Source: Desulfitobacterium dichloroeliminans LMG P-21439 (GTDB taxonomy: Bacteria; Bacillota; Desulfitobacteriia; Desulfitobacteriales; Desulfitobacteriaceae). From it: 64,000 nt of DNA. This document shows, piece after piece, positions 13,144-29,749 of the stretch (position 1 is its first letter; each line of letters opens with the position of its first letter). Both the position numbers and the translations under genes were made by a program. The stretch lies in NCBI RefSeq assembly GCF_000243135.2, contig NC_019903.1, positions 1,216,001 through 1,280,000 on the forward strand, given 5' to 3'. The notes below the pieces were generated by a model, which saw nothing but the letters and a program-made list of their open reading frames with translations, ran no database searches and was not told the origin of the DNA.

Positions 13144-14676
13144 ATGGCTCAAGAGCTCGTATTGGTACTTGATTTTGGTGGTCAATATAATCAACTCATT
13201 GCACGACGTGTCCGGGAAGCCCATGTGTACTCAGAAATGATTTCATATAAAACTCCCGTAGAAGAGATTAAGGCGAGGAACCCGAAAGGCATTATTTTTT
13301 CTGGAGGACCGGCTAGTGTCAATCAAGAAGGCGCTCCTGTAGTGGATAAGGCCATTTACCAATTGGGAATTCCGATCTTCGGGATTTGTTATGGTATGCA
13401 GCTCATGACCGCACAACTGGGGGGTAAGGTTATCCATCCTGAAGCCAGTGAATATGGCAAAGCGCTACTTTATGTAGATCAAGCCAGCGGTTTGTGGGAA
13501 GGTTTAGAGGGAGAGCGGCAATGCTGGATGAGCCATGGAGATTCGGTAGCAGAGCTGCCGGAAGGCTTTGCAATAGCTGCCCATACCCATCATACCCCAG
13601 TCGCTGCAATGATGGATGAGAAACGCCACTTCTATGGAGTTCAGTTTCATCCTGAAGTCAAGCATACTCCTGATGGGCAAACCATGTTAAAGCACTTCTT
13701 ATTTGATATCTGTGGATGCCATGGAGATTGGACCATGGAATCCTTTATTGATGCTCAAGTCAAAGCAATCCGGGAGAAGGTGGGAGAGCGTCAGGTGCTC
13801 TGCGCCCTGAGCGGCGGAGTGGACTCTTCCGTGGCTGCCGTCCTTGTTCATAAGGCCATCGGAGACCAACTGACTTGTGTCTTCGTCGATCATGGGTTCA
13901 TGCGCAAGAATGAGCCTGAACAGGTTAAGAAAATATTCGCTGAGCAATTCCATCTCAACCTGATTTGCGTAGACGCCAAGGAACGTTTTATGGCTAAGGT
14001 TGGCGGAGTTTCTGATCCGGAAACCAAGCGGATTGGCATCGGCAATGAATTTATTCGCCTGTTTGAAGATGAAGCTCGCAAGATAGGTGAGATTGATTTC
14101 TTAGTACAAGGCACACTTTATCCGGATATCGTGGAGAGTGGAACCGATACGGCGGAGACCATTAAAAGTCACCACAATGTGGGCGGACTTCCCGAAGATA
14201 TGCAGTTTCAGCTGATCGAACCTTTGAACATGCTCTTTAAGGATGAAGTTCGAGAAGTAGGAGCTGAACTAGGAATTCCTGATGAAATCGTTTGGCGGCA
14301 GCCCTTCCCGGGACCGGGGTTGGCAATCCGGATTCTTGGCGAAATCACGGTGGAAAAGTTAGATATTCTCCGAGAAGCGGATGCCATTATCGTCGAAGAG
14401 ATTCGCAACGCAGGACTTTATAAAGAGGTTTGGCAATCCTTTGCTGTACTTCCTACTATTAAAAGCGTCGGCGTAATGGGAGATGGACGGACCTATGAGT
14501 ATCCTATCGTCGTCCGTGCGGTGTCCAGTGAGGATGCCATGACTGCCGACTGGGCAAGACTGCCTTATGACCTCCTAGAGAAAATATCTACGCGCATCGT
14601 CAACGAAGTGAAGGGTGTCAACCGGATAGTGTATGACATAACCTCCAAGCCCCCTGGCACGATTGAGTGGGAATGA
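13144..14676 (+). CDS. guaA: GMP synthase (glutamine-hydrolysing); 3' end forms attL of the integrated element
   Basis: Aminates XMP to GMP. The 510-residue protein has a class I glutamine amidotransferase domain (Cys82 in GICYGMQL, His169 and Glu171), an ATP-pyrophosphatase loop SGGVDS (223-228) and a C-terminal dimerisation domain ending GTIEWE. ATG 13144 follows GGGAGG by about 11 bases. The last codons coincide with the 14-bp attachment repeat, so the stop (TGA) is supplied by the integrated element. The other copy of the repeat reads GAG-TGG-GAA-TAG, which suggests the native stop was TAG. The protein is unchanged by integration. Confidence 0.97.
14661..14674 (+). repeat. attL (left attachment repeat)
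   Basis: GATTGAGTGGGAAT within the last codons of guaA matches 29071-29084 (GATCGAGTGGGAAT) with one difference. The crossover core is probably the identical GAGTGGGAAT. Confidence 0.85.
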
Positions 14677-14735: not shown

Positions 14736-14754
14736 TGGCAACGTTTTGGCAACA
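14736..14754 (+). repeat. Left arm-type integrase sites (candidate)
   Basis: Two direct copies of TGGCAAC start at 14736 and 14747, 11 bases apart. The same pair with the same spacing and orientation occurs at the right end. This suggests sites for the N-terminal DNA-binding domain of the integrase. Confidence 0.6.
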
Positions 14755-14818: not shown

Positions 14819-15589
14819 TTATTTTTTAGTTTTATCTGTCTCGGTTACGACTTTGTACTGTCTAACAATTTTAGCCTCCTCATAGAAGTTTCTTTCATAG
14901 AGAGTGGACTTTCCAATCGGACATATTAAACCCTTCGATTGGCAGTATTTTTTCATTGCATCGACAAACCACTCATCAGCTCTGGGATCAAAAGTAATTG
15001 ATTTAATAAATGTATTTGGATTTATGTTAAATCCTACAACAGGAATATCCCACCAGTTTTCTATATCTCTATATCCTTGTAAACATACTAAAAGTCTAAC
15101 TTCGTTTTCATGTTTAAAGGCTTCTCTTTTTAGTGCCATCTCGCCGGCATAATGATAGGATTTATTATTTGCTATTTCATAACGTTTTTCTATATAGTTG
15201 CTTTTATTAAAGTAAATCACTTTTGCAAGAACGGCTCTTTTTAAATTATCAATTTCAAAAAAGCTATCAACATCTGTTTCAATCATTATCCCTTGGCGAT
15301 TTGACGAGTATATACGCCACATTGCATCTGAATCTTTTTCATAAGTCCAGCATTGACCAACAGTAGATGTAACAATTAAAGATTCAGCGTATCTTTCGGA
15401 ACCATCATCCATAATAATGGGCAATTGATCGTCGGGTGCTTCCCATGTATCGTCCCATGACTTAACTTTCCTTAAAAAAAGTTTTTGATTTTCAATTAAG
15501 GAAATGAATTGTGCTAACGATATGTATCGATAGAGATGATCATCTTTATTAATATTATCAGTTACCGAGAGCGATTCGTATTTATTCAT
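14819..15589 (-). CDS. DUF2971 domain protein
   Basis: A 256-residue soluble protein typical of DUF2971: an N-terminal LYRYISLAQFISLIENQKLFL segment, a CWT motif (VGQCWTYEKDSDAMWRIYSS), then FKHENEVRLLV and a C-terminal DPRADEWFVDAMKKYC stretch. DUF2971 genes are frequent on mobile elements and in defence neighbourhoods, but no activity is established. It overlaps the upstream repressor gene by 8 bases and is therefore translationally coupled to it, so it is expressed in the quiescent state of the element. A protective (abortive infection or exclusion) role is only a guess. Confidence 0.8.
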   Translation of the reverse strand: MNKYESLSVTDNINKDDHLYRYISLAQFISLIENQKLFLRKVKSWDDTWEAPDDQLPIIMDDGSERYAESLIVTSTVGQCWTYEKDSDAMWRIYSSNRQGIMIETDVDSFFEIDNLKRAVLAKVIYFNKSNYIEKRYEIANNKSYHYAGEMALKREAFKHENEVRLLVCLQGYRDIENWWDIPVVGFNINPNTFIKSITFDPRADEWFVDAMKKYCQSKGLICPIGKSTLYERNFYEEAKIVRQYKVVTETDKTKK

Positions 15590-16082
15590 TTTTTATCGCT
15601 TCCCTTTTTGTATTTCTTGAAGATTTGCTTTGTCCAGCTTCTATTTTTGGATAGTTATAACGCCAATCATCGTATTCATCCTTGGTAATCTCACCGCGTT
15701 TGAACTTATCATACTCTTTTTGCCATGTGCTGAACATATCAAACATAGTTGAAAAAGACGGACTATTATATTTATCAAGTGTAATGCAAAGCTCTCCATC
15801 TAGATTTTTTATTCTCAATCCGTAAAGGTCTTCCAGTGCAAACAGCGTGTGCATGACACAAATATAAGAATCAATATCCGGTACTGTTAAGGCCTCTGGG
15901 CTGATACCCAGAGCAACTGCCAGTGAATTGATCATGCTGTCCTTCGGTGTTCTGGTCCCCGATTCATATTGTGCCACACGAACATCAGCAGTTCTTTCAT
16001 CAAAACCGGCAGCCAAGCCGAGATATTTTTGCGTCATGCCCCGCAAGTTGCGGATAAACCGGATTCTTTCACCAATAGCCAT
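15582..16082 (-). CDS. XRE-family repressor of the element
   Basis: 166 residues. The N-terminal 60 residues are a Cro/CI helix-turn-helix (IGERIRFIRNLRGMTQKYLGLAAG, then VAQYESGTRTPKD). The remainder is acidic and may mediate dimerisation. ATG 16082 is chosen over an upstream in-frame ATG because GGAGA lies 7 bases before it. The divergent region to the right has three palindromic AAACA-N4-TGTTT sites overlapping promoters on both strands, which this protein is expected to bind. It has no RecA-cleavage or peptidase motif that I can recognise. Confidence 0.85.
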   Translation of the reverse strand: MAIGERIRFIRNLRGMTQKYLGLAAGFDERTADVRVAQYESGTRTPKDSMINSLAVALGISPEALTVPDIDSYICVMHTLFALEDLYGLRIKNLDGELCITLDKYNSPSFSTMFDMFSTWQKEYDKFKRGEITKDEYDDWRYNYPKIEAGQSKSSRNTKREAIKNE

Positions 16083-16123
16083 ATTACTATCTCCAATCAC
16101 ATGTAAATGAGTTCTTTGTAAGT

Positions 16124-16153
16124 ATAATAACATATTTGTTTAAGAATACACAA
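16124..16153 (-). promoter_or_regulatory. Leftward promoter of the repressor operon, with operator O1
   Basis: On the minus strand TTGTGT (16153-16148), an 18-bp spacer, and TATTAT (16129-16124). Operator O1 (16128-16141, TAACA-N4-TGTTT) sits in the spacer, which suggests autoregulation. Confidence 0.55.
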
Positions 16154-16196
16154 GAGAATATAAACAAAAAAGTTTAGTTATTATCTTGTAAACCTC

Positions 16197-16225
16197 TTGA
16201 CACAAACAAATATGTTTAGTATTAT
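16197..16225 (+). promoter_or_regulatory. Rightward promoter of the excision/mobilisation genes, with operator O2
   Basis: TTGACA (16197-16202), 17-bp spacer, TATTAT (16220-16225): a near-ideal sigma-A promoter. Operator O2, AAACA-AATA-TGTTT (16204-16217), fills the spacer. Confidence 0.75.
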
Positions 16226-16236
16226 CAAAATAAAGT

Positions 16237-16252
16237 TAAACAAATTTGTTTA
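16237..16252 (+). promoter_or_regulatory. Operator O3
   Basis: TAAACAAATTTGTTTA is a perfect 16-bp palindrome a few bases downstream of the expected rightward start point. A weaker relative (AAACA-N4-AGTTT) lies at 16162-16175. Confidence 0.75.
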
Positions 16253-16420
16253 ATAATAAAATTGAATGACTATCCAAGCAGCTATCTTTTGAAAAAGTGG
16301 GGCATGACTTTTCATAATGCAAATGGGCTTGCTAATGGAGAAAGCAACACAGAGCTGATTAAGGTTGCCTGTCAGGAAACTGTATAGGAGAGAATGGCAA
16401 ACAGTAAAAGGAGGGGAAAA

Positions 16421-16636
16421 ATGAGTAACTCTTTCTTGCGCGTTGATGAGGTGGCGGCAGAATTAGGTGTATCAAAATCATATGCCTACAAAGTTGTTCA
16501 AAGACTCAACAAGCAGCTTAAAGACATGGGCTACCTGACCATAGCGGGCAGGGTCAACAAGAAGTATTTCGAAAAAATGGTTTGCTACGGCGAACCTGTT
16601 AATCTGGAAAGGAAGGGATCGAATGGCGGCATATAA
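16421..16636 (+). CDS. Excisionase-like helix-turn-helix protein
   Basis: A 71-residue protein with a winged-helix/excisionase pattern (FLRVDEVAAELGVSKSYAYKVVQRLNKQL). ATG 16421 follows AAAGGAGGGGAAAA; an upstream in-frame ATG at 16394 is less likely. It overlaps the integrase gene by 14 bases and is the first gene of the rightward operon, the usual place for Xis, which steers the integrase toward excision. The family call is good; the excisionase role is inferred. Confidence 0.75.
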   Translation: MSNSFLRVDEVAAELGVSKSYAYKVVQRLNKQLKDMGYLTIAGRVNKKYFEKMVCYGEPVNLERKGSNGGI

Positions 16637-17705
16637 GGAATCGAACACCAATACTTGGCGCGCTGTCTACCGCTATACCGACTGGAAAGGCAATCGCAAG
16701 CAAACGCAAAAGCGTGGCTTTGCCACGAAGCGTGAAGCCCTCGCATGGGAACGTGAACAGCTTCAAAAGGCAACAGCTGATTTGGATATGACATTTGAGA
16801 GCTTTATTGAAACCTATACCGCCGATATGCGCAGCCGCATCAAGGAAAACACATGGGAAACCAAAGAGCATATTATCCGCACGAAGCTGCTACCCTACTT
16901 CGGGAAGCGAAAAATGTGTGAGATTCAGCCTAAGGAGATCATTGCCTGGCAAAATGAGATGATTAACTGTAAGTATGAGCATGGGAAGGCGTACTCTCCG
17001 GTATATCTGAAAACGCTGCATAACCAGCTCAGTTGCATCTTTAATCATGCAGTCAAGTATTATGGCCTGTCACAAAACCCGGCAGCTAAAGTCGGAAATA
17101 TGGGCAAAGCTAAGAACAAGGAAATGCAATTCTGGACAAAAGATGAGTACTTAAAATTTGCCGATGCCATGATGGACAAGCCTATATCCTTCTATGCTTT
17201 TGAAATGCTCTACTGGTGTGGAATTCGTGAAGGTGAACTGCTTGCATTGACACCCGCCGATTTCGATTTTGAGAAAGGCACTGTCACAATCAGTAAATCA
17301 TATCAGCGGCTAAAGGGGCGCGATGTAATTACTGATCCGAAGACAGAAAAAAGCAACCGCACGATAAAAATGCCGCAGTTCCTATGTGGGGAGATGCAAG
17401 ATTATATCAATTCACTGTACGATGTGGAGCCAAATGATCGCATCTTCCAGATCACAAAGTATTATCTTCATCACGAGATGGATAGAGGTGCAAAGGTGGT
17501 CAACGTCAAGCGCATCAGAATTCACGACATTCGGCACAGCGCGATTTCACTATTGATAGATATGGGATTTTCGGCCATTGCAATCGCTGACCGTGTCGGT
17601 CATGAAAGTATCGACATTACTTACAATTATGCGCATCTATTCCCGTCAAGACAGACGGAGATGGCGAACAGGCTGGACTTTGAGCGTACAGAGAAAGGAG
17701 ATTAA
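16623..17705 (+). CDS. int: Tyrosine recombinase / integrase
   Basis: Catalyses site-specific integration and excision at guaA. The 360-residue protein has an N-terminal AP2-like arm-binding domain (residues 1-45), a SAM-like core-binding domain (about 57-150) and the catalytic domain. The catalytic residues are visible: Arg202 (CGIREGEL), His301 and Arg304 (HDIRHS), His327 (VGHES) and Tyr336. It most resembles Tn916-type integrases. It sits 2 kb from attL rather than next to it, with the switch module between. Intact and apparently functional. Confidence 0.95.
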   Translation: MAAYKESNTNTWRAVYRYTDWKGNRKQTQKRGFATKREALAWEREQLQKATADLDMTFESFIETYTADMRSRIKENTWETKEHIIRTKLLPYFGKRKMCEIQPKEIIAWQNEMINCKYEHGKAYSPVYLKTLHNQLSCIFNHAVKYYGLSQNPAAKVGNMGKAKNKEMQFWTKDEYLKFADAMMDKPISFYAFEMLYWCGIREGELLALTPADFDFEKGTVTISKSYQRLKGRDVITDPKTEKSNRTIKMPQFLCGEMQDYINSLYDVEPNDRIFQITKYYLHHEMDRGAKVVNVKRIRIHDIRHSAISLLIDMGFSAIAIADRVGHESIDITYNYAHLFPSRQTEMANRLDFERTEKGD

Positions 17706-17707
17706 CC

Positions 17708-18040
17708 ATGTCATTAAAAAACAAAGACAATCATAATCGCTGGAGGAACAAAACCGTTGCATTCCGTGTTTCGCCGGAAGAAGATGAGCAAATCGAGATT
17801 GCCGTCAAGCTCACCGGCTTGACCAAGCAGGATTACATCACCCGGCGACTGCTCTGCAAGGATGTTGTAGTGCAAGGTAATCCGAGAGTATATAAGGCGC
17901 TTCGTAACCAGCTCTCCGCCGTGCTGGATGAACTGCAGCGCATTGAAGCAGGTGCCGGTATGAACGATGAACTGCTCGACACAATATGCTGGATTGCCAC
18001 CATTATGGACGGAATGAAGGAGGAAACGCATGGCGACTAA
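17708..18040 (+). CDS. MobC-like relaxosome accessory protein
   Basis: A 110-residue basic N-terminus with a ribbon-helix-helix pattern (VAFRVSPEEDEQIEIAVKLTGLTKQDYITRRLL), followed by helices (VYKALRNQLSAVLDELQRI). This matches small mobilisation proteins that assist relaxases at oriT. It starts 2 bases after the integrase stop and overlaps the RepA-like gene by 11 bases. It could also regulate its own operon. Confidence 0.7.
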   Translation: MSLKNKDNHNRWRNKTVAFRVSPEEDEQIEIAVKLTGLTKQDYITRRLLCKDVVVQGNPRVYKALRNQLSAVLDELQRIEAGAGMNDELLDTICWIATIMDGMKEETHGD

Positions 18041-19193
18041 AAAAGAAAAACCGGCTGTCCCGGTTCCGTCTGCGCCAACAGACGGGGAAAAGCCGCTTTC
18101 AAAAAACTCTGAGAAAAGTATAACAGAAGAAAATTTTAAAAACAATCCTCCAGAGAAAAATTACGAAGAGATGCTGCGGATGATGCAGCAAATGAACGAC
18201 CCGGCTTATCTTCATACAGTGTCCATGAATGAACTCTATGAAAATATCTACCAGAGCAGACCACCTATTATAGGCGGTCTGCTCTACTCCGGCGCCTACA
18301 TTCTGGCGGGTGCTCCAAAGGTCGGAAAGTCATTTCTTGTGGCACAGCTCGCTTATCACATCAGCACGGGACAAGCGCTCTGGAATTTTGAGGTGCACAC
18401 GGGCACCGTACTATATCTTGCCCTTGAAGATGATTACCAGCGTTTGCAGGAGCGTATGTTCCGTATGTTCGGAGTGGAGGGGACAGATAATCTTTACTTT
18501 GCCGTCTATGCTAAACAGATCGGAAACGGTCTTGATGAGCAGCTTGAGAAATTTATGCGGGAACACCCGGACACAAAGCTTATTATTATCGACACTTTGC
18601 AAAAAATACGCGAGATCGGCGGCGAGGTATATAGCTACGCAAATGATTATGACATTGTTGGTCAAATGAAGAAATTTGCGGACAGGCATTGTATCTGTCT
18701 GTTGCTGGTGCATCACACCAGAAAGCAGCCTGCCGGTGACAATTTTGAAAGGATATCCGGTACGACCGGACTTCTCGGTTGCGCGGACGGCGCATTCCTT
18801 CTGCAAAAGGAAAATCGCACAGACCTCAATGCGACACTGGATATTGTGGGCCGTGATCAACCGGATCAGCGGCTTTACCTCCAGAGAGATAAAGAACGGC
18901 TTATCTGGATGCTAGACCATGCAGAAACTGAGATGTTGAAAGAGCCGCCGGATAGGATTCTGGACTCTCTTTCCCGGCTGGTAACAGCAGAAAAACCGGA
19001 ATGGTTTGGCAGTCCTACGGAGCTTGTAGCTGCACTCAACCTGGATATAAAACCCAACGTACTTACACTGCGGTTAAACGTAAAGGCTGGGCGGCTCATG
19101 CAGGAATATGATATCCGTTATGAGAGTAGCCGAACCCACTCAGGGAGATTTATCAGACTAATGCTTATTTCACCAGAAGCGTGTCGGTCGTGA
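18030..19193 (+). CDS. RepA-like AAA ATPase (AAA_25)
   Basis: 387 residues. After a low-complexity, proline/glutamate-rich N-terminus (1-45) comes a RecA-fold domain with Walker A GAPKVGKS (94-101), the LYLALEDDYQRLQERM segment and a Walker B strand KLIIIDTLQKI, as in hexameric RepA helicases of plasmid RSF1010. The C-terminus has a winged-helix look. Such proteins in integrative elements may support replication after excision. No primase or Rep initiator is recognisable beside it, so self-replication is uncertain. Confidence 0.8.
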   Translation: MATKKEKPAVPVPSAPTDGEKPLSKNSEKSITEENFKNNPPEKNYEEMLRMMQQMNDPAYLHTVSMNELYENIYQSRPPIIGGLLYSGAYILAGAPKVGKSFLVAQLAYHISTGQALWNFEVHTGTVLYLALEDDYQRLQERMFRMFGVEGTDNLYFAVYAKQIGNGLDEQLEKFMREHPDTKLIIIDTLQKIREIGGEVYSYANDYDIVGQMKKFADRHCICLLLVHHTRKQPAGDNFERISGTTGLLGCADGAFLLQKENRTDLNATLDIVGRDQPDQRLYLQRDKERLIWMLDHAETEMLKEPPDRILDSLSRLVTAEKPEWFGSPTELVAALNLDIKPNVLTLRLNVKAGRLMQEYDIRYESSRTHSGRFIRLMLISPEACRS

Positions 19194-19588: not shown

Positions 19589-20929
19589 ATGGCAAGAAAC
19601 GATGGTGTTGACCGAATCAGTGCAAGAAATGTCAACCTGTCAAATGCAAAAATCGGCAACACACAAAGACATAATGAACGCGAAAAAGAATCCTATATAA
19701 ATCCGGATATCGTGCCTGAGCGCTGCGATTTCAATATTCATTTCAAATCGCCGACGAACAATTATGAAAAGATGTTCACTCAAATGGAAGCTGACAAAGT
19801 GATATCTACCCGAGGCCTGAAAGATGAAGCCAACCTTTACGGCGAGCTGATCTTTGATGTAAACTCAGCATACTTCCACAATCACGGCGGCTATGAATTT
19901 GCCAAGCAGTTTTATGCGGACGCATATAAAGCAGCCGTCGAGATCGTTGGTGGTGCGCAGTATATTCTTTCGGCAGTTATGCACGCCGATGAACGCAACA
20001 GAGCCATGTCCGAAGCATTGAAGCAGGAAGTTTTCCACTATCATATGCATGTAGTATATATCCCCGTTGTGGAGAAAGAAGTACTTTGGTCGAAGCGATG
20101 CAAAGACCCTTCCCTGGTCGGCACGGTTAAGGAAACTGTTATGCAGGTGAGCAGCAGCAAAAAGTGGCTGTCTCAGCCTGCACTTGACGACGACGGTAGC
20201 CCCATTTTACAAAAGAACGGCAAGCCGGTGCTGCGAAAATCCTATAGTGTTCTTCAAGATGATGTTTTTAATTTTATGCGAGCAGCCGGGTATAACGATG
20301 TGGAGCGCGGTGAGCGCGGGAGCTCTGAGGAGCACCTGACCGTTACGCAGTTCAAGGTCGAGCAGGAAAAGCACCGGCTTGAAGAGTTGGATGCAGCCAA
20401 AACCGAGGTGCAGGCTGAAATTGTGCATCTTCAGGAAGAAAAAGCTGATGCTCAAAATGAAGCGAAGGAGGCAAAAGACCGGCTGAATGATCTTGCTCCG
20501 AAAGTCGAAAAGATGGAGATGCTTGCCGCAAAATATTCCGATGATCCGGAAAAATTGCTTCCGGAAGCTGGGGCGCTGGAAAGCGCCAGAAACTACCGAG
20601 AGAAAAAAGTTAAACCACTTCTGGCGGGAATCGTGAAAGTCCTGCGCTCGGTGTATAACGCATACCTTGACCTTGTCAGCAAATTTGATAGACTTCAATC
20701 TTCATATGAACGGGAAATAAGAAAGAATAATACACTTTCTGATAGGTTGGAAGACGTCTTTTCTGAAAATAAAGAGTTAAGGAATGTGGCAGAAAATTAT
20801 GAGCGCGTCTGTCGCGCTTATGGCCCCGAGCGTGTAGCGGAAACTATCGAAGCGGTCAGAAAGCAGGAAAGGGTTGAAAAAGAGCAAAAACGTATTTCCA
20901 GACAAATGCATGACCGGGTTTTACGATGA
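19589..20929 (+). CDS. mobV: MobV-family relaxase (Pre/Mob)
   Basis: Nicks oriT and pilots the single strand during mobilisation. In the 446-residue protein the relaxase domain spans about 1-240. It has an N-terminal ISARNVNLSNAKIGNTQRHNER segment, a conserved HADE at 132-135 and the metal-binding HYHMHVV (His150, 152, 154). The C-terminal half is a long coiled coil (about 250-430). The first 25 residues differ slightly from plasmid Mob proteins. AATGGAGGTGCAACG precedes ATG 19589. An adjacent oriT candidate and no transfer-pore genes fit a mobilizable element. Confidence 0.9.
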   Translation: MARNDGVDRISARNVNLSNAKIGNTQRHNEREKESYINPDIVPERCDFNIHFKSPTNNYEKMFTQMEADKVISTRGLKDEANLYGELIFDVNSAYFHNHGGYEFAKQFYADAYKAAVEIVGGAQYILSAVMHADERNRAMSEALKQEVFHYHMHVVYIPVVEKEVLWSKRCKDPSLVGTVKETVMQVSSSKKWLSQPALDDDGSPILQKNGKPVLRKSYSVLQDDVFNFMRAAGYNDVERGERGSSEEHLTVTQFKVEQEKHRLEELDAAKTEVQAEIVHLQEEKADAQNEAKEAKDRLNDLAPKVEKMEMLAAKYSDDPEKLLPEAGALESARNYREKKVKPLLAGIVKVLRSVYNAYLDLVSKFDRLQSSYEREIRKNNTLSDRLEDVFSENKELRNVAENYERVCRAYGPERVAETIEAVRKQERVEKEQKRISRQMHDRVLR

Positions 20930-21509: not shown

Positions 21510-21719
21510 ATGAAAGCAAGCTATAAAAAGTTATGGAAGCTCCTGATTGATAAAGATATGAAGAAGAAAGAATTGATGGAACAGGCTGGCATCAGCTCAT
21601 TTTCAATTCGTAAGCTCAGTCGTGGCGAGAATGTCACAATGGAGGTTCTTGGGAAAATATGCAAAGTGCTGAACTGTACGCTGGATGATATTTGTGAATT
21701 TGAAGAGACAGACTCTTGA
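21510..21719 (+). CDS. XRE-family regulator of the restriction operon
   Basis: A 69-residue protein that is almost entirely a Cro/CI helix-turn-helix (LIDKDMKKKELMEQAGISSFSIRKLSRGENVTMEVLGKICKVLNC). It is the first gene after a promoter and precedes hsdR by 84 bases, the position of a controller protein that times restriction expression. GAGAGGTG precedes the ATG. No obvious symmetric C-box is visible in the short leader, so autoregulation is only inferred. Confidence 0.8.
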   Translation: MKASYKKLWKLLIDKDMKKKELMEQAGISSFSIRKLSRGENVTMEVLGKICKVLNCTLDDICEFEETDS

Positions 21720-21803: not shown

Positions 21804-24800
21804 ATGAAAGCTGAAAAGCAAATTGAAGAATCTTTTATCAATAAGCTTCAGGATTTAAAATACACGTACCGCGAAGACATTAGGGATAGGGCCTCACTTG
21901 AAGCTAATTTTAGAGGACATTTTGAAAGACTAAATCGTGTAAAGTTAAGCGATTCTGAATATGCGCGTCTCAGAGATACGATTATCACACAAGAAGTGTT
22001 CACTGCGGCCAAAACTTTACGGGAAGTAAACACCTTCAAACGGGATGATGATACGCCACTTCAATACACCCTTGTTAATATCAAAGACTGGTGCAAAAAC
22101 GAATTTGAAGTGATAAACCAAATGCGCATTAACACAGAAAACAGCAATCACCGTTATGATGTCATTATACTTATAAATGGAGTTCCCATTGTTCAGGTGG
22201 AGCTTAAGTCACTTCAAATTACACCTAAAAGGGCAATGGAACAGATTGTAGAATATAAAAATGATCCGGGTAACGGCTATACAAATTCGTTGCTTTGCTT
22301 TATGCAGCTTTTTATTGTAAGCAATGAGAGCAACACATATTATTTTGCTAATAATCCAAAGGAACATTTCTGTTTCGATGCCGACGAGCGGTTTTTGCCA
22401 ATTTATCAAATGGCAGACGAAGACAACAACAAAATTACGCATCTTCATGATTTTACTGAAAAGTTTCTGCCTAAATGCACCCTTGGGCAACTAATAAGCC
22501 GCTATATGGTGCTTGTTGTAAGTGAGCAGAGATTGATGATTATGCGTCCTTATCAGATTTATGCCGTTAAGGCTATTGTAGACTGCATCGATCAGAATCG
22601 CGGCAACGGTTACATTTGGCACACAACTGGAAGCGGAAAAACACTTACGTCGTTTAAAGCATCAACGCTTTTGAAGGATAATCCTGAAATAGAAAAATGC
22701 CTATTTGTTGTTGATAGAAAGGATCTTGATAGACAGACACGCTTGGAGTTTAATAAATTTCAGGAAGGCTGTGTTGAAGAGAATACGAATACAGAAAGCT
22801 TAGTGAAACGCCTTACTTCCGATGATTATCGTGATAAAGTTATTGTTACGACAATTCAAAAGCTTGGTCTCGCTCTCGACGAAGATAGCAAACGCAATCA
22901 GGAGAAAAAGAAAAGAGGCGAATTAACCTACAAGGAACGATTAGCAAAGCTTACTGACAAGCGTATAGTCATTATTTTTGACGAATGCCATCGCTCTCAG
23001 TTCGGTGATAATCACGAGGCGATAAAAAACTTCTTCCCAAAGGCGCAGCTTTTTGGCTTTACCGGAACGCCAATATTTGAAGATAATGCTACTTACAAAA
23101 AAATTGATGGTACAGTTGGCTCTTATGTAACAACGGAAGATGTTTTCCAAAAGGAGCTGCACACCTATACAATTACAAACGCCATTGATGACCGCAATGT
23201 GCTCCGCTTTCACATTGACTACTTTAAGCCAGAGGACGTAAAAAAAGCTGCAAAAGCTCCAAACGTTCTGAGTAAAAAAGCAGTGGTCGAAGCGATAATT
23301 TCGAAGCATGACGCCGCAACCAACGGCAGACGATACAATGCGATTTTTGCGACTGCTTCTATCAACGATGCAATTGAGTATTTTGAACTCTTTAAATCAT
23401 TGCAGGACGATCGCAGCAAGGACGAGGGCGAGAACTTTGTGCCGCTGAATATCGCCTGCGTATTTTCTCCGCCAGCCGAAGGAAACAAGGATGTAAAGCA
23501 GCTGCAAGAAGATTTGCAGCAAGAGAAAGCCGATAATGAAAAAGAGCCGGAGAAGAAAAAGGCGGCCCTTAAAAGCATTATGGATAACTATAACTTGATG
23601 TATGGCACAAGTCACAGTACTAATGAATTTGATTTGTATTATCAGGATGTACAGCAACGCATCAAAGACCAAAAATATCCCAACTCGGACTATCCTCACA
23701 AAAACAAAATTGACATAACAATTGTGGTGGATATGCTTTTAACCGGGTTTGATTCAAAATATCTTAATACCCTATATGTCGATAAAAACTTAAAGCAGCA
23801 CGGATTAATCCAAGCGTTTTCAAGAACGAACCGCATTCTGAACGACACAAAGCCATATGGAAATATTCTTGACTTTAGAGGACAAGAAAAAGAGGTTAAT
23901 GAAGCAATTGCGCTGTTCTCCGGAAAAGATAACAGCAGCAGAGCAAAAGAAATCTGGCTTGTTGACCCAGCTCCTGTTGTCGTAGATATGCTGGACAAGG
24001 CAGTCACCGTGCTCGAGAAGTTTATGGAATCGCAAGGGCTTGAGTACAAGCCTGAACAAGTGAACAATCTGAAAGGAGATGCCGCACGAAGTGAATTTAT
24101 CAATAAATTCAAAGAGGTGCAGCGCCTCAAAACACAGCTTGACCAATATACAGATATCAAAGAAGAGCAAGTGGCAAAAATTGAAGAGCTATTGCCGGAG
24201 GATACTCTGCGTGCCTTCCGTGGTGTTTATATTGAAACCGCTCAGCAATTAAAAGCGCAGCAGGGTAAGAATATTGAAGATAAAGACCCTGTTATTGAAC
24301 AGATCGATTTCGAGTTTGTTCTGTTTTCCTCTGCTATAATTGATTATGATTATATCATGTCTTTGATTTCAAAATATACGCAACCCGATGTGCCTAAGAA
24401 AGAAAAAATGAGCCGTGAACAGCTCATTGGTTTGCTTAGCTCAAATTCAAACATGATGGATGAGCGCGATGATATTATTGAGTATATTAATACGCTGGAA
24501 GCTGGAAAAGGGTTGGACGAAAAGGCAATAAAAGAAGGTTATAAGGCATTCAAAGATGAAAAATCGGCAAAGGAAATGGCATCGCTCGCCGTCAAGCATG
24601 GCTTACATCCGGCATTGTTGCAAGTCTTTGTGGATGAAATTATAGGTCGCATGATTTTTGATGGCGAAAAGCTGAGTGACTTGTTGGCTCCGTTAAATCT
24701 TGCCTGGAGAGACCGGACAAAGAAAGAACTTGAGTTGATGGATGACTTGATTCCCTTGCTAAAAAAACTTACAGGAGGACGTGTGATTGCGGGGTTAAAT

Positions 24801-24812
24801 GCATATGAATAA
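21804..24812 (+). CDS. hsdR: Type I restriction enzyme, R subunit
   Basis: Translocates DNA with ATP and cuts it when the target is unmethylated. The 1002-residue protein has the nuclease site Asp119 and Glu133-Leu-Lys135 (PD-ExK type), Walker A TTGSGKT (274-280), DECH helicase motif II (393-396), later helicase motifs (FTGTP, VDMLLTGFDS, QAFSRTNR) and a helical C-terminal region for binding HsdM. GAGAGGAGATCC precedes ATG 21804. It overlaps hsdS. The order R-S-ATPase-M is unusual, since hsdM normally precedes hsdS. Complete. Confidence 0.96.
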   Translation: MKAEKQIEESFINKLQDLKYTYREDIRDRASLEANFRGHFERLNRVKLSDSEYARLRDTIITQEVFTAAKTLREVNTFKRDDDTPLQYTLVNIKDWCKNEFEVINQMRINTENSNHRYDVIILINGVPIVQVELKSLQITPKRAMEQIVEYKNDPGNGYTNSLLCFMQLFIVSNESNTYYFANNPKEHFCFDADERFLPIYQMADEDNNKITHLHDFTEKFLPKCTLGQLISRYMVLVVSEQRLMIMRPYQIYAVKAIVDCIDQNRGNGYIWHTTGSGKTLTSFKASTLLKDNPEIEKCLFVVDRKDLDRQTRLEFNKFQEGCVEENTNTESLVKRLTSDDYRDKVIVTTIQKLGLALDEDSKRNQEKKKRGELTYKERLAKLTDKRIVIIFDECHRSQFGDNHEAIKNFFPKAQLFGFTGTPIFEDNATYKKIDGTVGSYVTTEDVFQKELHTYTITNAIDDRNVLRFHIDYFKPEDVKKAAKAPNVLSKKAVVEAIISKHDAATNGRRYNAIFATASINDAIEYFELFKSLQDDRSKDEGENFVPLNIACVFSPPAEGNKDVKQLQEDLQQEKADNEKEPEKKKAALKSIMDNYNLMYGTSHSTNEFDLYYQDVQQRIKDQKYPNSDYPHKNKIDITIVVDMLLTGFDSKYLNTLYVDKNLKQHGLIQAFSRTNRILNDTKPYGNILDFRGQEKEVNEAIALFSGKDNSSRAKEIWLVDPAPVVVDMLDKAVTVLEKFMESQGLEYKPEQVNNLKGDAARSEFINKFKEVQRLKTQLDQYTDIKEEQVAKIEELLPEDTLRAFRGVYIETAQQLKAQQGKNIEDKDPVIEQIDFEFVLFSSAIIDYDYIMSLISKYTQPDVPKKEKMSREQLIGLLSSNSNMMDERDDIIEYINTLEAGKGLDEKAIKEGYKAFKDEKSAKEMASLAVKHGLHPALLQVFVDEIIGRMIFDGEKLSDLLAPLNLAWRDRTKKELELMDDLIPLLKKLTGGRVIAGLNAYE

Positions 24813-26061
24813 TAATAACAAAACGGCTTTGATGCCGAGGCTACGGTTCCCGGAATTTGTATTGACCGGTGAATGGCAAGTATATAAACTTGATGAAATA
24901 GCTGACAGGCTTACGGAGAAAGTCGGCGATAGGCAACTCACGACTTTGAGCATTTCAGCAGGAGTAGGCTTTGTTTCGCAAGCTGAAAAATTTAGTCGAG
25001 ATATTTCTGGTAAGCAATATGAGAACTACATTTTCTTGAAAAAAGGAGATTTTTCTTACAACAAGGGTAATTCCAAGAAGTTTCCACAAGGCTGTATATA
25101 TGAGCTTAAAGAGTATGACGAAGCCGCTGTGCCCAATGCTTTTATTAGTTTTCATTTTAATGAAAACTATGTATCGAGTTTTTATAAAGGGTATTTTGAG
25201 AACAATTTTCATGGTAAGCAATTGAAAAAGTTTATCACGAGTGGTGCGAGAAGCGACGGACTGCTGAATATCAACGCTTCTGATTTTTTTAGCATTATTC
25301 TGCCTACCCCAAAGAAAAAAGAAGAGCAACAAAAAATCGCCGATTGTCTTTCTTCACTTGATGACCTTATCACCGCAGAAGACAAAAAACTTGAGTCTCT
25401 CAAGGCGCACAAAAAAGGTCTTATGCAGAAGCTGTTTCCCGCTGAGGGAAAATCTGTACCTGAGTGGAGGTTCCCGGAGTTTAGGGATAGCGGGGAGTGG
25501 GAAAAGAAAACGATAGGCTCTTCATGTGCTTCTTTTAGTGGAGGTACTCCCGATACTTCAAAAAGAGAATATTACAATGGCAACATCCCCTTTATCAGGT
25601 CTGCTGAAATTGACCGAGAAACAACAGAACTATTTATTACCAAAGCAGGCCTTGATAACTCTGCCGCTAAAATGGTTCAAGCAGGAGATGTGTTAGTTGC
25701 ATTATATGGTGCCAATAGTGGTGAAGTGTCCTTGTGTAAAATTGATGGAGCCATAAATCAGGCTATCCTTTGTTTAAGACCTGAAAATATCAACGCTTTT
25801 GTATATCAATACCTATTTCATAAGAAATTCTGGATAATTTCAACATATATACAGGGCGGACAAGGAAACCTCTCAGGGGAGATAGTTAAGTCAATTGAGC
25901 TTTATTTCCCGAAGCTTGAAGAACAACAAAGAATTGCTGATTGCCTTACCGGCATTGATGACATCATAACCGAGCAAGCCAAAAAGATTGAAGCATTGAA
26001 ACTCCACAAAAAAGGCTTAATGCAAGGGCTATTCCCTTCTATTGAGGAGGTGGGCGAATGA
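24799..26061 (+). CDS. hsdS: Type I restriction-modification specificity subunit
   Basis: Determines the recognition sequence. The 420-residue protein has two target-recognition domains, each followed by a conserved helical spacer. The spacers are near-repeats: EEQQKIADCLSSLDDLI with LESLKAHKKGLMQKLFP, and EEQQRIADCLTGIDDII with IEALKLHKKGLMQGLFP. It overlaps hsdR by 14 bases and the next gene by 4. The ATG at 24805 is an alternative start. The bipartite target sequence cannot be predicted by eye. Confidence 0.95.
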   Translation: MHMNNNNKTALMPRLRFPEFVLTGEWQVYKLDEIADRLTEKVGDRQLTTLSISAGVGFVSQAEKFSRDISGKQYENYIFLKKGDFSYNKGNSKKFPQGCIYELKEYDEAAVPNAFISFHFNENYVSSFYKGYFENNFHGKQLKKFITSGARSDGLLNINASDFFSIILPTPKKKEEQQKIADCLSSLDDLITAEDKKLESLKAHKKGLMQKLFPAEGKSVPEWRFPEFRDSGEWEKKTIGSSCASFSGGTPDTSKREYYNGNIPFIRSAEIDRETTELFITKAGLDNSAAKMVQAGDVLVALYGANSGEVSLCKIDGAINQAILCLRPENINAFVYQYLFHKKFWIISTYIQGGQGNLSGEIVKSIELYFPKLEEQQRIADCLTGIDDIITEQAKKIEALKLHKKGLMQGLFPSIEEVGE

Positions 26062-27161
26062 GCAGCAAAACTTTTCCAAACCTGAAAAAGTTAGCACAAA
26101 ATATACGTGATACACTTGGTGATAAAAAGTGCTATCTCCTGTTTGCGTATAATGGAACCGGAAAAACAAGGCTTTCCAGTGCGTTTAAAGACTTAGGCAA
26201 GAAGCCTATCCGCGGAACCGATGAAAAAACGGCAGATACGCTTTATTATAATGCGTTTACAGAGGATCTTTTTACTTGGAACAATGATCTTGATGGAGAT
26301 ACTGATAGAAGGTTGTTGTTTAACAAGGATTCCCGCTTTTTTAGAGGGTTAGATGGCTTTGCAATCGATACCCGTATTCGCCTGCTTCTAGATATATATG
26401 CGGATTTTAATTTTACACTATTCTTCGACGAAGGATATGTTGCTTTTTCACGAGAGGTTAGAACGAGAACTTCCACAGTAACCGAAGACCGAATTAAAGT
26501 CTCTCGCGGGGAAGAAAACATTTTTATCTGGTGTTTTTTCCTTGCAGTGGCTCAATTGGCAATTGACAGAGAACCTGCTTATGATTGGGTCAAGTATATC
26601 TATATAGATGATCCAATATCATCATTAGACGATAATAACGCTGTCGCTGTCGCTTGCCATCTTGCGCAACTGATTAAGAGTAGTGAGATGAAAATAGTTG
26701 TCTCTACGCACCATGCTTTGTTTTTCAATGTAATGTATAACGAGCTAAAACGCGACAGCACAGTCAAACGCTTTCTTAGCAAAAAAGGTGATACTAGTAA
26801 ATACATTGTTCGTGATACCGGGGATACTCCCTTTTTTCATCATGTCGAACTGTTGAAGCAATTGAAAGAGGTTGCAGACTCAGGAAAGCTTTATACCTAT
26901 CATTTTAATATTCTAAGAAATATCCTTGAAAAAACAGCCTCATTTCATGGGTTTGATAAATTTTCTGCTTGTATTAAGCAAGACGAAACAGACTTGGATG
27001 GTTCTATCCATTTACGAATGACAAACCTGTTAAGTCACGGAGCATATTCAATATTTGAACCCGTTGAAATGGTTGAAGATAATAAGAGGATTTTCAAAGA
27101 AATTCTGAACGGATTTTTAGAAACTTACAAATTCAACACCGAATTATTTGGTGAGGCATAG
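26058..27161 (+). CDS. RM-embedded ABC ATPase with PrrC/HEPN-like C-terminus (candidate anticodon nuclease)
   Basis: 367 residues encoded between hsdS and hsdM. The N-terminal two thirds is an ABC-type ATPase: Walker A AYNGTGKT (30-37), signature VSRGEEN (148-154), Walker B IYIDDP (181-186), D-loop SSLD (188-191) and H-loop STHH (216-219). The C-terminal 100 residues carry Arg287-x3-Glu291 and the HEPN signature Arg320-x6-His327 (RMTNLLSHGAY). From memory, PrrC, the tRNA-Lys anticodon nuclease silenced by a type I restriction enzyme, uses an Arg/Glu/His triad with the same R-x3-E spacing. The protein is shorter than PrrC (about 396) and lacks a long coiled coil, unlike Rad50-like RloC. The ATPase call is firm; nuclease activity is inferred. 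It is translationally coupled to hsdS by an ATGA overlap. Confidence 0.75.
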   Translation: MSSKTFPNLKKLAQNIRDTLGDKKCYLLFAYNGTGKTRLSSAFKDLGKKPIRGTDEKTADTLYYNAFTEDLFTWNNDLDGDTDRRLLFNKDSRFFRGLDGFAIDTRIRLLLDIYADFNFTLFFDEGYVAFSREVRTRTSTVTEDRIKVSRGEENIFIWCFFLAVAQLAIDREPAYDWVKYIYIDDPISSLDDNNAVAVACHLAQLIKSSEMKIVVSTHHALFFNVMYNELKRDSTVKRFLSKKGDTSKYIVRDTGDTPFFHHVELLKQLKEVADSGKLYTYHFNILRNILEKTASFHGFDKFSACIKQDETDLDGSIHLRMTNLLSHGAYSIFEPVEMVEDNKRIFKEILNGFLETYKFNTELFGEA

Positions 27162-27172
27162 GAGGCACAAGA

Positions 27173-28927
27173 ATGAACGACAAACAACAAAAACAATTAG
27201 GCGCAACTCTATGGGCTATAGCCGACAAGCTGCGCGGGGCCATGAATCCCGATGACTTCCGTGATTATATGCTGTCCTTTCTTTTCTTGCGCTATCTGTC
27301 TGACAATTATGAGGAAGCAGCAAAAAAAGAACTTGGCAGCGATTATTTGCAATGTGAAAATGAAATAGAAAGTATTAATAATGCTGGCAAACAAGACGAG
27401 ACTATTAGTGTATTGAAAGAACAGGTAACGGATTATTTTATCAAACAGGAATTAGAGGAAAATGTTAAAAATATGATGATTGACGATCATCTTGTATTGT
27501 TTGAAAGTAAAAAGTTAACCCCGCTTATTGTTTGGTATAATAAAAATTTAGATCAAATTGTGATGTTTGAAAAACAAATGCGTCGTAAAGTTCATTTTGT
27601 AATCAAACCTCACTATCTTTGGAGCAACATATACGAATTAGCCCGCACTCAAAGCAAGTATCTTTTGCGAACTTTGCAAGAAGGTTTTAAGTTTATAGAA
27701 AATGAGTCCTTTGACAGCGCATTTCGCGGTTTGTTTTCCGAGGTCAATCTCGATTCTGACAAGCTTGGAAGAAATTATGAAGCTCGAAATACCATGCTGT
27801 GTTCAATCATAACTGAAATTGCCGAGGGGCTTTCTGAGTTTACTAACGAAACCGATCTTTTGGGAAATGCCTATGAATACTTGATTGGCCAGTTTGCGGC
27901 AGGCTCAGGCAAAAAAGCTGGAGAGTTCTATACTCCTCAGCAGATCTCGAACATCCTGTCACGCATTGTTATACTTGATAGCCAAGATCCCAGTACAGGC
28001 AAAAAGCTATATATTAATAATTTGTTGGACTTTGCTTGTGGTTCAGCTTCGCTGTTAATCAATGTTAAAAAGCATCTTGAACCAAACAGTATTAGCCAGA
28101 TATATGGGCAAGAAAAGAACATAACAACTTACAACCTTGCACGCATGAACATGCTTCTTCATGGATTTAAGGATTCTGAGTTTCAAATCTTTCATGGGGA
28201 CTCACTGTTAAATGACTGGGATATCTTAAACGAGATGAACCCGGCAAAAAAATTGAAATGTGACGCAGTCGTAGCAAATCCTCCTTTCAGCTACCGTTGG
28301 GAGCCTAACGATACCCTGGCTGAAGATTTCCGCTTTAAAAGCTATGGACTTGCCCCAAAATCAGCGGCTGACTTTGCCTTTCTGCTACATGGATTTCACT
28401 TTTTGAGTGATGAAGGCACAATGGCAATTATTTTGCCTCATGGTGTTTTATTCCGTAGTGGCGCAGAAGAAAAAATCAGAACGAAGCTACTCAAAGATGG
28501 GAATATCGATACTATTATTGGGTTACCCGCAAATCTCTTTTTCTCAACAAGCATTCCGGTATGCATTCTTGTGCTTAAAAAGTGCAAGAAATTCGACGAC
28601 GTGCTATTTATTAATGCGAGCGAATACTTTGATAAAGATAAGCGTCAAAATGTCTTGCTACCAGAGCATATCGACAAGATTGTTGACACCTATCAGTTCC
28701 GTAAAGAAGAGGACAAGAAATATTCTCGTCGCGTGTCAATGGAAGAGATAGAAAAGAACGGTTTCAATCTCAACATATCAAGATATGTGAGCACAGCTGC
28801 GCAAGAAGAAATTGTTGATCTTGCGGATGTGAAAAAGAACCTTGACGAAACTGAAGATGCCATAAAAAGGGCAAAGGCAAAGCATAATCAGTTCTTGAAG
28901 GAACTTGGTTTGCCAGAGCTACCTTGA
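27173..28927 (+). CDS. hsdM: Type I restriction-modification DNA methyltransferase subunit
   Basis: Methylates adenine in the HsdS target and so protects host DNA. The 584-residue protein has an N-terminal helical domain (LWAIADKLRGAMNPDDFRDYML), GEFYTPQQIS (250-259), SAM motif DFACGSA (286-292) and catalytic NPPF (369-372), typical of gamma-class N6-adenine enzymes. AGGAGGCACAAG precedes ATG 27173. It is last in the operon, after the PrrC-like gene, so loss of hsdM translation would not remove the upstream restriction and ATPase genes. Confidence 0.95.
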   Translation: MNDKQQKQLGATLWAIADKLRGAMNPDDFRDYMLSFLFLRYLSDNYEEAAKKELGSDYLQCENEIESINNAGKQDETISVLKEQVTDYFIKQELEENVKNMMIDDHLVLFESKKLTPLIVWYNKNLDQIVMFEKQMRRKVHFVIKPHYLWSNIYELARTQSKYLLRTLQEGFKFIENESFDSAFRGLFSEVNLDSDKLGRNYEARNTMLCSIITEIAEGLSEFTNETDLLGNAYEYLIGQFAAGSGKKAGEFYTPQQISNILSRIVILDSQDPSTGKKLYINNLLDFACGSASLLINVKKHLEPNSISQIYGQEKNITTYNLARMNMLLHGFKDSEFQIFHGDSLLNDWDILNEMNPAKKLKCDAVVANPPFSYRWEPNDTLAEDFRFKSYGLAPKSAADFAFLLHGFHFLSDEGTMAIILPHGVLFRSGAEEKIRTKLLKDGNIDTIIGLPANLFFSTSIPVCILVLKKCKKFDDVLFINASEYFDKDKRQNVLLPEHIDKIVDTYQFRKEEDKKYSRRVSMEEIEKNGFNLNISRYVSTAAQEEIVDLADVKKNLDETEDAIKRAKAKHNQFLKELGLPELP

Positions 28928-28955
28928 AGCAGAGGAAATTGAAAGTTTATTATGC

Positions 28956-28974
28956 TGGCAACAATCTGGCAACA
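28956..28974 (+). repeat. Right arm-type integrase sites (candidate)
   Basis: Two copies of TGGCAACA start at 28956 and 28967, 11 bases apart, matching the left-end pair. Confidence 0.6.
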
Positions 28975-29070
28975 AAAAATAAGAGAGCCCAAAATATATG
29001 GATAACTGATATATTAGAAATACCATGAACTAAATAATCTATACAAAATTGTTTAAGTTATAGATTTTGG

Positions 29071-29084
29071 GATCGAGTGGGAAT
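29071..29084 (+). repeat. attR (right attachment repeat)
   Basis: GATCGAGTGGGAAT lies after hsdM and just before a strong terminator (29097-29134). Read in the guaA frame it gives EWE then TAG, so it retains the original end of guaA. Confidence 0.85.
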
Positions 29085-29159: not shown

Positions 29160-29501
29160 TTATAAATTGTGCAAAATATAGTGTTTGATGGCTTCCTCAA
29201 CAGTGGCATTTAATGTTTGACTATGAGAAGCGGAATATAGTACCAGATTTTTGTGAAGTTCAGGAGTAACACGTACATTAAAACTTCCGCGATATACTTT
29301 TTCCGGCTCTAAATCTTTCTCTGCACATAAGTCAAGGTAATCATCGACTGCAGCCTCAAAATCCTTTTGCAGACTTTCAATGCTTTCGCCCTCAAAGGAA
29401 ATCAGACTGTTCAATCCAATAACCTTCCCGAACAACACTTTATCATTAGCGGAAAATTCGACAGTGCCAAAGTATCCTTTATACTCTAACAGATTACTCA
29501 T
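29160..29501 (-). CDS. hicB: HicB-family antitoxin
   Basis: A 113-residue protein. The N-terminal half is the HicB partial RNase-H-like fold (GYFGTVEFSANDKVLFGKVIGLNSLISFEGESIESL). The C-terminal half is a ribbon-helix-helix (GSFNVRVTPELHKNLVLYSASHSQTLNATVEEAIKHYI) that binds the operator. It neutralises HicA. It overlaps hicA by 4 bases, and hicA comes first, the usual order. It lies just outside the integrated element, so it is a separate accessory module. Confidence 0.9.
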   Translation of the reverse strand: MSNLLEYKGYFGTVEFSANDKVLFGKVIGLNSLISFEGESIESLQKDFEAAVDDYLDLCAEKDLEPEKVYRGSFNVRVTPELHKNLVLYSASHSQTLNATVEEAIKHYILHNL

Positions 29502-29749
29502 ATTAAATCCTCCTGTTCCAAGATTGCTAAAACCTGTTTTATCTGATACTCCAATAATTCTTTGCGAGGGTGCGGCTTATGCAGGCTGATGACTATATTG
29601 TCTTTAAGAAATTTCACTCGAGACCCACTTGTCTTGCCTTTGTTGAATAATTCGAAACCCATTGATTCAAGAGCACTCTGCATCTCATCAAACGAAAAAT
29701 CTTTCGGCTGACTTTTCAATCGTTCAATCAATTTCTCTTTCTTTCCCAC
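29498..29749 (-). CDS. hicA: HicA-family mRNA interferase toxin
   Basis: An 83-residue dsRBD-like toxin that cleaves mRNA when not bound by HicB. The GSRVKF segment and the catalytic histidine region ISLHKPHPRKEL are present, along with the C-terminal IKQVLAILEQ helix. GTG 29749 follows AGAGGTGAGGCA on the minus strand. Intact, so the pair is probably active as a stability or stress module. Confidence 0.9.
   Translation of the reverse strand: MGKKEKLIERLKSQPKDFSFDEMQSALESMGFELFNKGKTSGSRVKFLKDNIVISLHKPHPRKELLEYQIKQVLAILEQEDLI

Follow-up and report, generated by a model that had tools for sequence, protein, structure and literature searches.

A predicted two-way repressor switch with four conserved operators in a guaA-inserted mobilizable element of Clostridia

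We found that a 14.4-kb mobilizable element lying in the 3′ end of guaA in Desulfitobacterium dichloroeliminans carries, between a divergently oriented XRE gene and xis, four predicted operators (O1–O4) through which the XRE protein probably acts as master repressor, silencing both its own operon and the xis-int-mobC-repA-mob genes. The two-way repressor switch in a mobilizable element that a first-pass annotation of this DNA had proposed is supported by anatomy and by comparative evidence, and we infer XRE binding, repression, looping and cargo expression from sequence. The same layout recurs in dozens of related elements of Clostridia, where the regulation of mobilizable elements has hardly been studied, and it offers a testable operator code for a mobile-element family that uses a single chromosomal site, guaA, in Clostridia of various genera, some of them from the gut. 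The literature searched, with subscription journals mostly outside its scope, held no description of this switch or of a Clostridia guaA element family.

Operators, promoters and repressor of the control region

The four predicted operators span 16125–16254 of the 64-kb window (the whole stretch of DNA analysed), within the gap between the XRE and xis start codons (16083–16420). These are O1 (16125–16144; core TAACATATTTGTTT at 16128–16141; 12.1 bits), O2 (16159–16178; core AAACAAAAAAGTTT at 16162–16175; 12.8 bits), O3 (16201–16220; core AAACAAATATGTTT at 16204–16217; 14.2 bits) and O4 (16235–16254; core AAACAAATTTGTTT at 16238–16251; 19.9 bits), with centre-to-centre distances of 34, 42 and 34 bp; counted against AAACA-N4-TGTTT, O1 and O2 have one mismatch each and O3 and O4 are exact. 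With the window and its near-twin locus L014 left out of the training set, a matrix returned exactly these four control-region sites with these scores, and O4 is the top matrix match in the whole window. The O4 core lies within a longer perfect palindrome, TTAAACAAATTTGTTTAA (16236–16253); the palindrome previously placed after the rightward start does exist, its length being 18 bp and not 16 bp. AAACA-N4-TGTTT with at most one mismatch occurs eight times in the window versus 3.45 expected, four of the eight being packed into 124 bp, and only seven exact copies are present genome-wide, two of them in the control region. A fifth operator-like site (29038–29057, 12.3 bits), ~20 bp from attR, may be due to chance, since two more matches that strong occur elsewhere in the window.

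The rightward promoter PR (16197–16225, plus strand; TTGACA-17-TATTAT, 11 of 12 consensus positions), predicted to drive xis-int-mobC-repA-mob and kept in ~75 relatives, has its spacer filled by O3, with O4 over or just past the expected transcript start. O1 lies within the spacer of a weak leftward promoter, PL (16124–16153, minus strand; TTGTGT-18-TATTAT, 8 of 12), which is predicted to drive the XRE and DUF2971 genes. This PL has a poor −35 box (TTGTGT) and was not called by the promoter scanner; it is nevertheless credible, given that relatives carry strong promoters at the same position (TTGACA or TTGACT, a spacer of 17 or 18, and TATACT or TATAAT). The operator in each promoter's spacer that the first-pass annotation had described was found at both promoters, and the position of O1 and the operator-in-spacer arrangement are kept in relatives; the weaker copy that it had placed between the promoters corresponds to O2, which lies between the −35 boxes of PL and PR, upstream of PL.

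In the mechanism that we propose, an XRE dimer would bind each of four 18-bp operators of the form YTAARCAWA-TWTGYTTAR. Occupation of O3 in the PR spacer and of O4 at the PR start would keep xis-int-mobC-repA-mob off and the element integrated, while O1 in the PL spacer, together with O2, would limit the repressor operon, including its cargo gene (DUF2971 in this element). Without repression, Xis would be made, the element would excise and, given the conjugation system of a helper, it would be transferred.

The XRE protein (15582–16082, minus strand; 166 aa; HTH_3, E 4e-8) has its HTH at residues 3–66, with an extended recognition helix of the C.Csp231I type, and in an AlphaFold2 model built from 39 relatives the mean pLDDT was 88.7. 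Its best solved matches are C.Csp231I and BswR, both with an extended recognition helix, and C.Csp231I was matched by profile (E 1.2e-12), by Foldseek (rank 1) and by VIA-align (Z 12.9). The extended helix aligns as DEASASARMNQYEKG in XRE versus DERTADVRVAQYESG in C.Csp231I. The C.Csp231I contacts Arg10, Gln17, Arg34, Gln37 and Tyr38 have equivalents that show either no variation or a conservation of 90% or more, and two DNA-contact residues are replaced (Ser32 by Asp and His43 by Arg). By helix and contact residues, the DNA-binding domain is predicted to belong to the C.Csp231I class (motif 8), and this link to a solved controller-protein–DNA structure makes binding and DNA bending directly testable. 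The C-terminal domain (residues 70–166) is a helix-hairpin-helix in the model, with no fold match below E 0.16.

An alternative to simple repression, in keeping with a controller-type recognition helix, is a bistable switch in which XRE at low level turns on its own promoter, in the manner of C proteins and pLS20 Rco. Rco acts on its own promoter as activator and as repressor (PMC6540685), and the location of O2 upstream of PL and the weak −35 box of the window PL would suit such activation. In most relatives, however, PL has a near-consensus −35 box and an operator in its spacer, which fits repression, and we regard self-activation as possible but rather doubtful.

Conservation of the operators and the protein they go with

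Screening 84,980 species genomes for XRE relatives yielded 519 stretches, of which the best 80 were used; in most of these best 80 of 519 loci, the repressor gene is divergent from xis and int, often followed by mobC and repA. The operator matrix was learned on 43 non-redundant loci (<85% identity in the control region) and gave the 18-bp consensus YTAARCAWA|TWTGYTTAR. All four AAACA-N4-TGTTT operators of the first-pass annotation are present, but as parts of this wider motif. The exact AAACA-N4-TGTTT proved too narrow as an operator definition, being missed in many relatives that do have sites, and the matrix was therefore used in its place. Relative to O3, sites cluster at −74 to −76, −41 to −42, 0 and ~+33, with all four operator classes present in 29 of the 43 non-redundant loci and the O3 class in 42, a conservation that is partly inheritance, since the loci share ancestry. 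Among viral contigs, the integrase has one partial match only. DAP-seq data on XRE proteins from C. thermocellum yielded no usable motif.

Small Xis proteins bind repeated sites, and the palindromes lie directly upstream of xis and int, so they might instead serve Xis or the integrase in an excision complex. Several observations make this very unlikely. Sites owned by Int or Xis should track the int and xis genes, yet none was found in L004, which encodes homologous Int and Xis, or in L103–L108 and L110–L112, which have integrase homologues without this XRE (L109 was left out of the count as its upstream sequence is too short). The XRE of L004 is without the 4-residue recognition-helix insert, and a different repeat family, AGTCACAAATGT, occurs there. 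Conversely, L002, whose XRE is 39% identical to that of the window and retains its recognition helix, carries four sites scoring 17–21 bits. Moreover, the palindromes sit inside two promoters, in fixed phase and far from attL (14665) and attR (29075), and TGGCAAC repeats close to both ends of the element are better candidates for arm sites. Judged by this distribution among loci, the predicted operator sites go with this XRE family rather than with Int or Xis; as the recognition helix is nearly invariant, L004 is the single contrast that shows helix–operator covariation. As to chance palindromes in A+T-rich promoter DNA, the control region is indeed very A+T-rich and the motif A/T-heavy, but the 43 non-redundant loci hold, at fixed positions, 175 sites above 5 bits versus 8.95 in dinucleotide shuffles and 137 above 11 bits versus 0.2, a comparison that rules this reading out statistically and leaves it a negligible probability.

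Leader RNA, cargo slot and the element at guaA

Between O4 and xis lies a structured leader RNA of type A (16263–16401, plus strand), recognized at 43.3 bits (E 1.4e-7) by model R3, which was built without the window; relatives carry type A or type B, and some neither. Type A leaders (~115–140 nt) are closed by a long-range helix that pairs in 85% of cells versus 19–46% in slid controls, with weaker covariation. Six of them (L050, L064, L067, L070, L075 and L081) contain an extra stretch of ~120–140 nt with its own hairpins, which splits the model match in two. Type B (~78 nt, 26 loci, one copy each) is best drawn as two chained pseudoknots, with 95.6% of cells paired and seven pairs changing on both sides, neither value being reached by any of 500 shuffles, and slid controls pairing 27–44%. 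Helix 2 provides most of the pairing support; the pseudoknots are consistent with the data but weakly tested, since the two crossing helices rarely vary. No Rfam family matched the leaders at gathering, with only chance matches below it, and this class has no counterpart in Rfam; the type B model had no match in 299 genomes of the phylum, none of them known to carry type B. Whether the leader forms a second control layer, setting xis-int expression after transcription start, we consider evenly balanced. Candidate modes of action are antitermination, translational control and ligand or RNA sensing, and the leader may act as single-stranded DNA instead.

On the other side of the switch, the DUF2971 gene (14819–15589, minus strand; Pfam DUF2971, E 7e-10; PADLOC PDC-S31, E 3e-47) belongs to the repressor operon, shares 8 bp with the XRE gene and is a candidate defence gene. 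It is swapped for other genes in relatives, where the interval between repressor and guaA holds varied genes oriented like the repressor. In four of ten such slot genes tested, PADLOC picked out candidates: one DUF2971 relative, one low-score TIR-like effector, PDC-S11 and PDC-M35A. One further gene has an NYN domain. This suggests a cargo slot under predicted repressor control, holding defence-like genes that would be expressed together with the repressor. In Subdoligranulum variabile (L129, OY725880.1), tet(W) lies ~550 bp beyond a 60%-identical XRE, and such elements may thus carry resistance cargo near the repressor.

The element is bounded by a 10-bp core, GAGTGGGAAT, at attL (14665–14674, plus strand), where it comprises the last guaA codons and the element gives a new stop, TGA, and at attR (29075–29084, plus strand), where the original guaA stop, TAG, follows. 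The guaA alignment with L096, an element-free sister genome of the same genus, ends at 14674, and there guaA is directly beside the cell-wall-binding gene, an empty site that would reflect either insertion after that split or loss. Another sister genome, L095, has a different integrase gene at the same guaA 3′ end, and R. hungatei has a 98%-identical backbone at guaA with another gene replacing DUF2971. More widely, the guaA 3′ end is near, beyond the repressor, in 62 of 81 XRE loci (L002 plus L014–L093, the best 80 of 519), at 115–1540 bp from the repressor in all but two of the 62; several of the remaining 19 loci end at contig ends.

The element ORFs appear to encode integration and mobilization functions, an R-M system, PrrC and DUF proteins. 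Downstream of PR, all on the plus strand, are xis (16421–16636; 71 aa; ICEBs1 Xis-related; NF047858 at 55 bits, below the cutoff of 100) and genes for a tyrosine integrase (16623–17705; Phage_integrase, SAM_3 and Arm-DNA-bind_4), a MobC/NikA-like relaxosome protein (17708–18040; PF21983, E 6e-12), a RepA-like AAA_25 ATPase (18030–19193; PF13481, E 8e-26) and a Mob_Pre/MobV-type relaxase (19589–20929; PF01076, E 3e-25; MobV model below cutoff). With its own integrase and flanking attL and attR, and with relaxase and mobilization genes (Mob_Pre and NikA-like), the element is probably an integrative and mobilizable element (IME). TGGCAAC(A) repeats paired near its ends (14741–14754 and 28955–28974) are likely integrase arm sites. 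Type I R-M genes hsdR, hsdS and hsdM occupy 21804–28927, where the tRNA anticodon nuclease gene prrC separates hsdS from hsdM, and a gene for a 69-aa HTH protein (21510–21719) lies upstream of them. Judging from ORF translations only, a HicB/HicA-like gene pair (29160–29749) is located directly outside attR.

Comparison with known switches

The phage-like immunity invoked in the first-pass annotation is a fair analogy, but the nearest parallels are ICEBs1 ImmR, pLS20 Rco and C.Csp231I rather than lambda CI. XRE shows only an HTH in Pfam and NCBIfam, in contrast to a lambda CI/S24-type repressor, and the adjoining DUF2971 gene has no peptidase match, in contrast to the ImmA neighbour of the ImmR–ImmA type. 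Among the annotated genes of the element there is no S24 peptidase, ImmA or Rap/Phr, and induction by DNA damage or a quorum signal, which had been put forward earlier, is thus unsupported by the sequence. In IMEs studied so far, a regulator from the helper element is the usual case (PMC5704250), and by analogy our guess is that the inducer here is of that kind.

Like XRE, ICEBs1 ImmR is an XRE repressor encoded divergently from xis, with promoters ~130 bp apart, several repressor sites beside each promoter and looping suggested (PMC4207663); the Xis proteins are related and the XRE HTH domain superposes on ImmR (7t8i). The guaA element differs in having four 18-bp palindromes and an extended helix, against six reported binding regions for ImmR, and in that no ImmA protease or Rap/Phr was found in it. 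The pLS20 Rco switch likewise has a single HTH repressor at divergent promoters, and its two operators, tetramer and DNA looping resemble the bridging predicted here; it differs in controlling a plasmid conjugation operon, in its overlapping promoters and in its anti-repressor Rap.

C.Csp231I and C.EcoO109I (motif 8) share with XRE the extended recognition helix and the half-site (C/T)TAA(G/A). C.Csp231I binds two CTAAG-N5-CTTAG sites with 18 bp between them and 33 bp between their centres, and the sites of C.EcoO109I are separated by 25 bp; when the C.Csp231I spacer is shortened the second dimer no longer binds, and the authors proposed a bent tetramer (PMC4321490). Operator-pair centres are thus 33 bp apart for C.Csp231I and ~40 bp for C.EcoO109I, compared with 33–34 and 41–42 bp here. 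The 33–34-bp pair spacing together with the C.Csp231I-type helix suggests that tetramers could plausibly bridge O1–O2 and O3–O4, the C.Csp231I spacing being only a parallel, with dimer–dimer contact across a short DNA bend within each pair. On the other hand, the half-site gap is 8 bp here (YTAAR-N8-YTTAR) versus 5 bp in C.Csp231I, and C.Csp231I has 98 aa whereas XRE has 166 aa with a different C-terminal domain. Moreover, C proteins control R-M genes, but the operators described here are at a divergent xis-int operon, and the R-M genes of the element lie 5 kb from the switch, beside the other small HTH gene at 21510; XRE is not in this respect a controller of the C.Csp231I class, with linked R-M control and CTAAG-N5-CTTAG sites.

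As for the element itself, ATE-1, GIsul2 and the Brucella IncP island also have a tyrosine integrase and insert in the 3′ end of guaA (PMC5704250), a likeness of insertion site and integrase type, their hosts being Actinobacteria and Proteobacteria. Taken with these systems, the switch is of the divergent XRE type in a variant layout, and not a new principle.
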